Shown: positions 940 through 5,764 of the stretch, in pieces
Layout of the letters: the number at the start of each line of letters is the position of its first letter
Numbering within the stretch: the stretch's first letter is position 1
Origin: Oidiodendron maius Zn
Taxonomy: Eukaryota > Ascomycota > Leotiomycetes > Myxotrichaceae
NCBI GenBank assembly: GCA_000827325.1
Contig: KN832872.1
Location: 1,178,001-1,242,000 of the forward strand
Length of the DNA: 64,000 nt
Direction of reading: 5' to 3'
Notes under the pieces: model-generated
The model's database searches: none
Seen by the model: the letters and a program-made list of their open reading frames with translations, nothing else
What the model was told of the DNA's origin: nothing
Translations under genes and position numbers: made by a program

Positions 940-2340
940 TTAGCTTCCGCTCAAAGTTTCAATCTCTCGACGATATATCTCGGCGTGATGTTCAGAACTA
1001 CAACTGACATTGTTGACATGATCGATGTGATAGCCATCATCACAATCTGCAATTTCTCCATAATCCGAACCACCGTCACTGAATTTGTCAAAGCGGCTTG
1101 TGTTCTTCTTCCCATGTTTGTCGGTCACTACATATCGACGATGGATAGGGATATAATTAGATGGTTCAGCGGTACGTTCCGCTGTAGTCATCCACTGATC
1201 AATAAGGGCAGCTGAGGCAGAAATTGTCGCTTCCTTGCGCTCTCCTTGGCTCTGGTGCATTGAACTATGTATTTCGGTCAGACCAGCACGTCGAGTTGGT
1301 GGACGCGTGAAGGAGTCCGCTGATAAAGCTGAGTAGAGGCCAACTCCATGATCATCTTGATGTCGATCGTGAAAGTCCGGCATCGATTTACTTTGCAGTA
1401 GGGCATGGTCCCATTGAAAGGGTCGAGCTCCATTTGCTGGAAGGCCAAGTGTGCTTGGATCTACAGCCACTGCTGTCTTCTGTTCTTCAGCTGGTTCTAG
1501 AGCAAGCCGCTGCACTTCCTCTTCAATATAACGTCTTGACAACGGCGGAGCCCGGCCAATGATGGAATTTCTAATGTGTCCTTGGCCACGGAAGGCTAAG
1601 AGTCGGTCACTAATTGCTCTGTCCTTTAGAGCTTGCTGAGTCGCCTGATTGCGTTGGTCCCGTACCGCTTCTTCCTCATACAAAATGCTGTGCTCTCCTC
1701 CTAGAGGATTTTGGTCTCTATCGAAGGCAGGTCCAGGGTTGTCGAAGACTAGCTGTGGTGTTATAGGTGGAGCACATCTTGGCGGATACCTGTCGATATT
1801 TGGTGCTGGCCAGTATATTGGCTCCGGGCATTGCTGTGGAAGTTCATACAGTGGGATGGGACGCGCGACCTCCTTTTTGCGGCGCCGAAGTCGATGAAGC
1901 TTATCCCGAAAAGGATCTTTATTTACTTTGATGCGCATGTTGAGACCACGGGGAAGGTGAGCGAAATCAGGGTCGATTTGTGGGTTTTTGCGCACGATCC
2001 AAGCACGACGGATCTTTTTCTTCAGGGTGTCATTCCTTGCTCCGTCTTTGGATCCCGAAAATCTTGTTTCATCTGGAACCGGCGATGCTGACTCTTCATG
2101 ATGAGGATGTCTCTTAGCAAGTCTCATTGGTGGAGCTCTTCTTATATCAGTTGCTTCAAACGCCGTTGGTATATCAGGTAGGGGACCTGATGGCGGCTCC
2201 ATGGGCACTTCTACTACACTGGAATAGCCCTTAGCAGAGGAGCATTTCGAGTAATAACTGTGAGGTGGCTGCGTCGAGGAACGAGTTAAATCCATGGCAG
2301 TGTCCAAGGAGCTGAATTTTTGCGTTTTGAAGCGGCCCAT
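940..2340 (-). CDS. hypothetical protein, 466 aa, unrecognised
   Basis: A single open exon of 466 codons starts at an ATG at 2338-2340. I do not recognise the family. The protein is hydrophilic with no signal peptide or membrane segment. Residues about 100-160 are strongly basic (KKKIRRAW, then RLRRRKK), which would suit a nuclear localisation signal or nucleic-acid contact. The middle is proline-rich with tyrosine-proline runs. A charged, possibly helical part follows (about 225-290), and the tail is Ser/Asp/His-rich. Length and even codon use over 1.4 kb argue for a real gene. An unseen 5' exon upstream of 2340 cannot be excluded, because the minus-strand frame at 2286-2555 is also open, but it has no clear link. 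Function unknown. Confidence 0.6.
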   Translation of the reverse strand: MGRFKTQKFSSLDTAMDLTRSSTQPPHSYYSKCSSAKGYSSVVEVPMEPPSGPLPDIPTAFEATDIRRAPPMRLAKRHPHHEESASPVPDETRFSGSKDGARNDTLKKKIRRAWIVRKNPQIDPDFAHLPRGLNMRIKVNKDPFRDKLHRLRRRKKEVARPIPLYELPQQCPEPIYWPAPNIDRYPPRCAPPITPQLVFDNPGPAFDRDQNPLGGEHSILYEEEAVRDQRNQATQQALKDRAISDRLLAFRGQGHIRNSIIGRAPPLSRRYIEEEVQRLALEPAEEQKTAVAVDPSTLGLPANGARPFQWDHALLQSKSMPDFHDRHQDDHGVGLYSALSADSFTRPPTRRAGLTEIHSSMHQSQGERKEATISASAALIDQWMTTAERTAEPSNYIPIHRRYVVTDKHGKKNTSRFDKFSDGGSDYGEIADCDDGYHIDHVNNVSCSSEHHAEIYRREIETLSGS

Positions 2341-2927
2341 TTTGTCTGGTTCCCCACCTGTGGATTATCTGGTGAATGATGCAGTAAGCGCGGAAATGGA
2401 ATCGAGAGTTGAGGAACTTCGTGACTAACTGGAGACCCAGTTTGGACGAGATGATTTGATGGTGAGACGGTGAGAGGGTTAGAAGGAGTGATGTTGACTA
2501 GTTTGGCGTGGAGATACACTAGATATTCACCTTTTACATATGGCTTACCTCTCAAGAAGGTTGTTGTGGCCTTCTATTGCAGCTTTCTAATCAAACTAGC
2601 CTGGCGTTTGAATACAATAAGGTGGTAACGGAACTGAGGTACAAGAGACTTGCTGCCCGTGACTGATAGTTGTAGAAGACTTTACAGCCAGTAATATTAG
2701 AATAATACGCCCTCTCTTACAATAATTTACAACGCCCATCTCAAAATAGCTCTCCATGGAGTTATCACTGCTTGCAAAGATTCGTGATCTCATACTTACT
2801 CTGATCAAGGAAGGGCGAGCATATAGAAAATTGCACGCTTCTTGAATCGTCAGGTTCGGGATATAGGATATTTCTTGTATGATTGACTCAAGGCTCTAGA
2901 ATTGTTACAAGCAATCCATTTATCTGA
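2341..2927. other. intergenic between two minus-strand genes
   Basis: This holds the 5' flank of the 466-aa orphan and the 3' flank of the TGS1 gene. Short open frames on the minus strand (2286-2555, 2596-2808) have no recognisable product. No other signal seen. Confidence 0.5.
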
Positions 2928-4171
2928 CTATGATACAAGACAGGCAGCAGGGATATAAGCAACTAATGCTTTGCTCGCTCCTTCCATACAGTATTGCACG
3001 ACTTCTACTTTCTTTCCTGCTGGTGGAAGCTTTGCAAGCTGCCTCAGGTCACTTGTCCTTGGCAAATACAGTGCCGAGTCCATGTGCCTGCAAGGGTCAT
3101 GTATGGTCTTCAATGAATATGGGTACATGGTATTCAGATTGAATACTTCATCGCTTGTGTAACCGGGCCCTCCCCATGGAGGCGAGGCAAATACAACAGT
3201 TTTCGAAGGGTCAATAGATGATGAATTAGAAGCGAGGTAAGAGAAGCAGTCGTCATTGATCCAGGTTATGTATTCGGATGCGCCGTATATTGCTGCGTTG
3301 TGCTGACCGCATGCGATGACCGAAGGGTCCTTTTCGATGGCGATAACTTGTACCCAACGATTAGAGAGAGCAAATGCAATAGAGTTACCTCCAACACCTC
3401 CAAATAGATCGATTATGACGGTCCTTGAAGGGTCGCTAATTGCTGCTAAGTCTTTTGCTATTTGGCTATTCAAAGTCATCAATATCGCACACATATATGG
3501 TCGGGAGACTGGACCTTACTTCGCAATGGGCTCAGGAGTGACGCCAAACCAAGCGTCATCAGTCATTTGTATACCCATATTATAACATGAGAATATACTG
3601 TGGCGTTGCTGCCAATATCTGGTGAATGTTAGTTTTGTGCGTTAGTATAACGAGCTCCCCACTCCACCTACTTCTGGATATCCCATGGCACTTGTCTAAT
3701 TGACGTATAATGATGGCACTCGTCTGTCAGAGGATAAATAGTTGAGACATCCTCTTGAGCGAATACATCCTCCCCATCGCCTATGCTGTTTTCGTTTATT
3801 GAATTCTTTACCTCCTTATCTCCTTTTCCTGTTTTCTTTCCCAGGCGTTGGGGAGTATCCTTCTCATTTGACCAATTTCCATGTAACGTACGTCGGTCTT
3901 CCCAAAGTTTTATGCCTCCATCAATTGCCTCAAGCAGTTCCTTATGTGACTTCGGATCACACTGTTCGCAATTGTAATCAGGTGGTGATTCGCCGTCAAC
4001 AATACCGATACCCATACATAGGCTGTGCTGCTTACATCCGCAACTAATGCAAGCGAGCCACATTTCGTTTGTATCATCTGGATCCCGTGTCATTCCACAC
4101 ACGCAGCGAATGACCTCGACTTCAGATTCTGTTAGCCCTGCTCTCTTGGACTTCTTCCTGGAGAATCTCAT
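2928..4171 (-). CDS. TGS1: PHD finger-trimethylguanosine synthase fusion
   Basis: Three exons (complement of 3672-4171, 3520-3618, 2928-3465) give 378 aa; the introns are 53 and 54 nt. Tgs1 converts the m7G cap of snRNAs and snoRNAs to the 2,2,7-trimethyl cap using S-adenosylmethionine, in the nucleus. The C-terminal ~210 residues carry the family marks: KYWQQR across intron 1, MTDDAWFGVTPEPIA, the SAM loop DLFGGVGGN, the acidic AIEKDP and the catalytic SPPWGGPGY. Unusually, exon 1 encodes a Cys4-His-Cys3 PHD finger (about residues 23-70; CVC, CISC, QHSLC, CEQC) on the same frame, then a Lys/Asp/Glu-rich linker (about 75-165). No in-frame Met lies between the PHD finger and the methyltransferase, so the two are one product unless an upstream promoter is missed. 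Yeast Tgs1 has no such domain. Start chosen at the only Met before the finger. Confidence 0.88.
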
Positions 4172-4675: not shown

Positions 4676-5764
4676 ATGTTTAATGCACTCAATCGCTTCA
4701 TATCGCGGCTTGACTCAGAATCTCCGAACCACGCTGCGAATCACGGAGCATTTGGCTTCCAGGTTTTGCGAAACACGAACCTTGAGCTTGCCCTTGAACC
4801 ATGGTTTGACTTTATAGTTGGAATCAATGGGCGCATGATTGTATGAAACCCGGACCACATATATATAATTTATTGATGACAGCAGGATGATTCTGATGCC
4901 ACTCTTTTCGCCCAAGAAGTGCGTAATTGTGCTGGCAGTACGGTTACACTTGGTCTGTGGAGCGCCAAGGTAAGCTCTTCAGCAATTTTTGGCTTGAATG
5001 GACTCTTATCGTTCGTAAAGGGGCAACGTACGAGAACGATGCACATTCCAATACCGGCAAGCAATTCATCGTTGGGTATAACTCTACAATGGACGTCTCT
5101 CTCAGCTGCGTCGAATATCTGGCATATCCTCGACGTTCCCACATCGTCGCCTGCGGATGCCGCTGGCCTCCTTCCATACAGCGACTATATTCTCGGAACG
5201 CCGGAAGGCGTTTTACATGGAGAAAGTGGCCTTGGAGAGCTTGTGGAGGATCACATTGGGCGACCGCTGCGACTATATGTCTACAACAATGAATATGATG
5301 TCACAAGAGAAGTCACTATTCACCCCAGTAGAGATTGGGGCGGAGAGGGTGCATTAGGCTGTGTCCTAGGATATGGAGCGTTGCATAGATTACCTGCGCC
5401 TCTGAGCGAGCCTGTTGCAGAACCGGGAGAAACCTTATTTGAGACTGAGAATGCACGATTTTCGAATGAAGAAGTAAGGCCTATCTCCAGCAGAGGAGAC
5501 GCATCTCAGCTCTTCATCCCTGCTGCAGCTTCCGCATCTACCGATTTCCTGGTTCCTGCCCAAATGGCGACGCCGCCGCCGCCGCCGAGTTCAACGCCTG
5601 GGAGGAAGAAGGAAAAGAAATCTCATCCTACGAATAAGAACTTCATAGACGACTACTTTATGGAAGGAGAAAAGAAGAGCAGAGAGCTAGATCATGCTCC
5701 CTCAAGGACCCCGGGACATACCCCACCTCCGCCTCCGAAATCAGGTCTACCGAAGGCAGGTTAG
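4676..5764 (+). CDS. GRH1: Golgi reassembly stacking protein (GRASP/Grh1)
   Basis: Three exons (4676-4840, 4886-4969, 5021-5764) give 330 aa. GRASP proteins are peripheral Golgi/ER-exit-site proteins that tether COPII vesicles and Golgi membranes and serve unconventional secretion. Two PDZ-like domains are visible: the first begins GAFGFQVLRN with WFDFIVGINGRMI, and the second holds LGITLQWTSLSAASNIWHIL, AAGLLPYSDYILGTPEGVLH and YNNEYDVTREVTI, ending at the GALGCVLGYGALHRLP stretch typical of the family. The C-terminal ~120 residues are Pro/Ser/Lys-rich and disordered (PPPPPSS, PPPPPKSG). No glycine follows the initiator Met, so N-myristoylation as in animal GRASPs is not expected. The second intron is 51 nt, a multiple of three, with no stop. 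The 3' end faces OST2 tail-to-tail. Confidence 0.93.

Follow-up and report, generated by a model that had tools for sequence, protein, structure and literature searches.

To our knowledge, what guides Tgs1 to its few substrates and keeps it off mRNA caps is only partly understood. The passages of PMC4466884 that deal with the N-terminus of the protein describe it as variable between species and as containing no known domain; in budding yeast, this N-terminus is nevertheless reported to be needed for nucleolar localisation and for self-association (PMC4466884). In S. pombe the localisation of Tgs1 is described as dependent on Mug174, the coilin orthologue (PMC11347179), so that there is a fungal precedent for a placing of Tgs1 that depends on a partner. 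The other described system that matters here is that of Bye1 and the PHF3/DIDO family, whose architecture, as given in PMC4100922 and PMC8526623, associates a PHD finger, a TFIIS central domain and a SPOC domain.

The gene considered here shares features with both systems. It lies in a window of 64,000 nucleotides of Oidiodendron maius Zn—the whole stretch of DNA that was analysed, to which the positions below refer unless a contig is given. The earlier note had proposed that a PHD finger, a linker and a Tgs1 methyltransferase are encoded in a single spliced frame of 378 amino acids; its coordinates proved exact, and the exons join across both introns as follows.

2928-4171, minus strand: the whole Tgs1 gene, with its ATG at 4171, three exons and a 378-aa spliced product
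3672..4171, minus strand: exon 1 (500 bases), residues 1-166 and two bases of codon 167
3959..4117, minus strand: PHD finger, residues 19-71, Cys4-His-Cys3, PF20826 PHD_5, with Lys47 and Ile42
3890..3958, minus strand: post-finger extension, residues 72-94, common to the genome's own BYE1-type gene
3692..3889, minus strand: charged linker, residues 95-160, devoid of Met
3619..3671, minus strand: intron 1 (53 bases), GT...AG, within the Lys codon of KYW
3520..3618, minus strand: exon 2, N-terminal Tgs1 fold, from YWQQRHSIF to VTPEPIA
3466..3519, minus strand: intron 2 (54 bases), GT...AG
2928..3465, minus strand: exon 3, core PF09445 domain (residues 215-372), SPPWGGP motif and stop

Exon 1 thus encodes, in this order, a basic N-terminus, the PHD finger, the Bye1-like extension, the charged linker and the start of the Tgs1 fold. 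Intron 1 contains CTAAC twice, with the second copy beginning 14 bases from the 3' end of the intron, and splits the conserved KYW motif as had been announced, the cut falling inside the Lys codon (AA|A TAT TGG). An in-frame TAA begins 12 bases upstream of the ATG. The protein has Mets at positions 1, 27, 37, 53, 181, 185, 313, 328 and 360; none occurs from Cys71, the last zinc ligand, to residue 180. As the Met following 53 is that of position 181, the stretch from Cys71 to the Tgs1 fold offers no start codon, in agreement with the claim that no Met lies between the two domains. We observe besides that, if intron 1 were retained, a TAG would follow the Lys codon immediately (3668-3671 of the window) and the product would be a PHD-plus-linker protein without methyltransferase; retention of this intron is thus a possible switch towards such a product.

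The methyltransferase part had been called complete, and the profile match and the alignment with human TGS1 agree. Methyltransf_15 (PF09445, RNA cap guanine-N2 methyltransferase) matches residues 215-372 with an E of 1.1e-37 (129.6 bits for a cut-off of 22), and human TGS1 (3gdh) aligns with residues 161-371 (E 7.6e-36) across both introns. This alignment includes the N-terminal lobe ahead of the core (KYW...WF.VTPE), present as in human TGS1, and sets SPPWGGP against the human PPW motif, whose W766 is reported to stack m7G (PMC3278928). Searched against NCBIfam, the protein gave methyltransferase families only, all far below their cut-offs. Compared with yeast Tgs1 and human TGS1/PIMT, the full catalytic fold is the same—KYW, VTPE and the core SPPWGGP—and the difference resides in the N-terminal PHD finger. 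We infer that this part of the protein is an ordinary Tgs1, with a predicted m2,2,7G capping activity.

A search for PF09445 in the 45.9-Mb assembly (58 contigs; four candidates, all scored) gave two places: the Tgs1 gene itself (132 bits) and C7:1200601 (30.8 bits, above the cut-off of 22). The frame at C7:1200601 bears TRAM and tRNA_U5-meth_tr domains, which designates a Trm2-type enzyme, so that this sole other match does not provide a second, PHD-less Tgs1. No second TGS1 was found by the PF09445 search in this assembly, which may be incomplete. Since Tgs1 is single as far as found, trimethylguanosine capping in this fungus would most likely need the PHD-bearing protein.

All eight zinc ligands of the Cys4-His-Cys3 finger claimed for exon 1 are present (Cys23, Cys25, Cys41, Cys44, His49, Cys52, Cys68 and Cys71), with the spacing of a PHD finger. 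The PHD_5 profile (PF20826) matches residues 19-71 of the spliced protein with 27.0 bits for a cut-off of 27, and the genome frame of the finger with 30.3 bits, above the cut-off; the generic PHD profile (PF00628) stays at 17.7 bits, under its cut-off of 24. By sequence, the nearest solved fingers are those of MLL5 (4l58, E 1.5e-6) and Set3 (5tdr, E 4.5e-6), together with PHF20 and ASH1L; the finger thus has its best matches among solved structures in the MLL5/Set3/ASH1L-type fingers (PF20826). When exon 1 was predicted alone the mean pLDDT was 37.2, too poor to be used, so that the fold of the finger is deduced from its sequence.

The closest relative of this finger is found in the same genome. 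The whole protein, searched against its own genome, gave seven matches, two of them being the Tgs1 gene itself; the match of residues 5-132 with C7:855084-855479 (41% identity, E 2.5e-25, 93.4 bits) falls in the following gene.

C7:855683-853053, minus strand: BYE1-type gene, an 876-aa frame with PHD, TFIIS_M, SPOC and DUF7071

The DUF7071 domain (PF23257) of this gene stands at its C-terminus, past SPOC. The BYE1-type gene having scored 93.4 bits and the next-best finger of the self-search 26.8, an origin from a different PHD gene was rejected (the weakest match, C3:135635 with an E of 1.73, was left out). Over residues 17-92 the Tgs1 finger and the BYE1-type copy are identical at 40 of 76 residues, and all zinc ligands are kept despite this low identity; were the 36 differences placed randomly, this would occur with a chance of 0.004. 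The similarity extends past the finger (DPKSHKELLEAIDGGIKLWED versus DPAYHKPLLDAIGRGEKPWED): the comparison of residues 72-100 with the BYE1 frame scored 69, a value reached by none of 1000 shuffles (best shuffle 49), and its aligned part, residues 72-94, corresponds to a shared extension of about 23 residues. Further along the linker, over residues 101-159, the likeness to Bye1 is not significant (score 36, reached by 230 of 1000 shuffles); we thus take the shared module to end near residue 94, though the match of the self-search reached 132.

At the codon level, the finger of exon 1 and the BYE1-type copy differ, over 76 codons, at 27 first, 24 second and 47 third positions. The NG86 method gave a dN of 0.41 and no value for dS, nor did YN00 give one; we read this absent dS as saturation. 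Taken together, these codon differences and this dN without dS make the presumed duplication look old. Like Bye1, PHF3 and DIDO, the Tgs1 protein has the PHD finger, related together with its extension of about 23 residues to that of the genome's own BYE1-type gene; unlike them, it gave no match to a TFIIS-like central domain or to SPOC at E 1 or better over its 378 amino acids. The simplest reading would be that the PHD module of BYE1 was duplicated onto TGS1, an event whose direction and date we infer from this comparison. The kinship between the Tgs1 finger and BYE1, as drawn from the two genes, is a new result.

These comparisons also bear on the reality of the fusion. The concentration of the differences at the third position of the codons is the pattern expected of coding DNA. 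In a rough codon score—slightly biased, since it was trained on the BYE1-type frame, which contains the related finger—the predicted frame was the best of six for the PHD finger (0.09), for the linker (0.13) and for exon 3 (0.02), whereas no frame of the intergenic stretch upstream scored better than -0.14. A chance open frame is rejected on this codon pattern and on the strong match (E 2.5e-25) of exon 1 in the same genome. As residues 161-166 and the two bases of codon 167 align with human TGS1, exon 1 itself encodes the start of the Tgs1 fold; mis-joined exons are rejected on this alignment, on the exon structure and on the coding signature. The PHD-Tgs1 fusion, as predicted from the genome, thus appears well supported, and it is unusual.

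The earlier note had further suggested that the finger, as a chromatin-reader module, could tie capping to histone state. The kinship with Bye1 goes in this direction; the lack of residues usually in charge of reading weakens the suggestion. In MLL5, Trp141 is reported to occupy 'position I' of the cage for H3K4me2/3, and Asp136 to contribute to a putative H3R2 pocket (PMC3793974). With MLL5 Asp136 and Met132 placed on the alignment by counting back from Trp141, the Tgs1 finger has Lys47 at the site of the position-I cage Trp and Ile42, after the third Cys, at that of the H3R2-pocket Asp, where the genome's Bye1-type finger has Trp and Asp. Trp is also the position-I residue of MLL5, Set3 and PHF20 as aligned with the Tgs1 finger, and of ASH1L as aligned with the Bye1-type finger. 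At the place of MLL5 Met132, the Tgs1 finger has Trp38, an aromatic residue of the cage wall present as in Bye1. The H3R2 pocket is not a constant feature of readers, PHF13, another H3K4me3 reader, being described without it (PMC3793974).

How uncommon Lys47 is depends on the fingers that are compared. The position-I Trp is found in all four other fingers above the PHD_5 cut-off, that is the Bye1-type finger of C7 and those at C6:910729, C1:4100794 and C1:3593603, and also in the finger at C9:283177 retrieved by the protein self-search. Three further PHD_5 matches stand under the cut-off: that at C3:1244603 has Thr, that of C2 shows no finger pattern, and that of C12 was left unread. The fingers of other PHD classes in the genome carry other residues at position I, so that a missing Trp is not unusual among PHD fingers at large; judged from the fingers compared here, it is unusual for the PHD_5-like class. 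Within the Bye1/PHF3/DIDO family itself, the finger of PHF3 is reported to carry mutations incompatible with H3K4me3 binding (PMC4100922). Lys47 and Ile42 were seen in one species and might be peculiar to Oidiodendron maius. With neither the cage Trp nor the H3R2-pocket Asp in place, a direct tie to chromatin marks is doubtful, and H3K4-methyl reading by the Tgs1 finger is not supported by its residues.

Given a real fusion and this unsupported H3K4-methyl reading, the interpretation that we favour is that of a docking or targeting module carried by an ordinary Tgs1. This Tgs1, the only one that the search gave, would act like other Tgs1 enzymes and provide snRNAs, capped snoRNAs and telomerase RNA with trimethylguanosine caps; its N-terminal finger would be a diverged relative of the Bye1 PHD module, most simply a duplicate, able to fold yet not to bind H3K4me2/3 in the usual mode. 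It would instead serve protein docking, targeting or self-association, as does the N-terminus of the budding-yeast enzyme. We consider this whole scheme as probable, though far from assured; for the docking role it draws on the analogy with yeast and on the loss of the alternative. A foldable, Bye1-related module in the N-terminus of Tgs1 would offer a concrete handle on the location of the enzyme and on its choice of substrates, and here a histone-reader domain may have been retained as a scaffold once its reading residues had changed.

Among the other explanations, we regard a coupling of capping to chromatin as unlikely. It supposes that the finger reads the H3 tail (H3K4me or other) or the 5' end of genes transcribed by Pol II, and so brings Tgs1 to nascent snRNAs and snoRNAs. 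The relation to a Bye1-type domain is in its favour, the more so since the yeast Bye1 finger is reported to bind H3K4me3 near start sites and promoters (PMC4100922); from this kinship and this activity, some altered contact with chromatin or polymerase could survive. The identity of the best solved matches (MLL5, Set3, PHF20, ASH1L) and the presence of Trp38 point the same way, as does the description of transcription partners for animal Tgs1/PIMT (PMC3278928). It has to be reconciled, on the other hand, with the absence of the position-I Trp and of the H3R2-pocket Asp, and with a Lys in the pocket that would be unfavourable to a lysine with its positive charge; moreover yeast Tgs1 is described as nucleolar, and trimethylation is viewed there as following transcription (PMC5934358).

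The finger could also be a relic, a tolerated baggage that folds and binds nothing of consequence. The absence of the ligand-reading residues and a PHD_5 score just at the cut-off would suit this explanation. Yet the eight zinc ligands and the extension have been kept despite an identity of 40/76 and a dS that we read as saturated, and the 500-base exon is still open and codon-structured, so that we hold a mere relic to be quite unlikely. Improbable too, in our opinion, is the idea that the cap hypermethylase acquired a Bye1-type finger whose specificity shifted, through Lys47 and Ile42, towards a new ligand located where Pol II units begin; should this be true, trimethylguanosine capping in this lineage would be guided to the gene while it is being transcribed, and not afterwards in the nucleolus. 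Finally, that exon 1 and the Tgs1 exons form separate transcripts, or that Tgs1 starts at another upstream exon, is very improbable: exon 1 left unspliced would indeed stop directly past the Lys codon, but its end, VPWDIQ, aligns with human TGS1 and runs into the KYW motif, the frame is restored across two introns of the GT-AG type, and the two domains are not separated by any in-frame Met.

A report of the PHD-Tgs1 pairing was not found in the literature searched, which consisted of open-licence papers; domain databases may well list it. As the presumed duplication looks old, the pairing is expected beyond Oidiodendron maius, which lowers the surprise. Relatives were looked for in viral and prokaryote contig collections, where none was confirmed from 11 viral and 20 genome pattern matches; these collections are not meant to hold fungi, so that the scans say nothing on the fungal spread of the pairing.

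Some observations concern the neighbourhood and the rest of the genome. A GRASP55/65 PDZ-like gene (4880-5764 of the window, plus strand; Pfam E 1.5e-47) is arranged head to head with Tgs1. Its start was placed by eye at 4676, and the approximately 500 bases that separate it from the Tgs1 gene may hold a shared promoter region. Just downstream of Tgs1 and on the same strand, positions 940-2364 (minus strand) form a 474-codon open frame without Pfam match at E 1 or better. About 800 bases past the right end of the window, at C3:1242791-1244710, PHD matches occur at two places, each in an 802-aa frame; the C3 finger at 1244579, with Thr at position I, belongs to a different class from the Tgs1 finger. 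At the scale of the genome, HET domains are very many, which together with the BYE1-type sequence suggests a member of the Pezizomycotina: all of the 150 candidates scored, out of 481, match.
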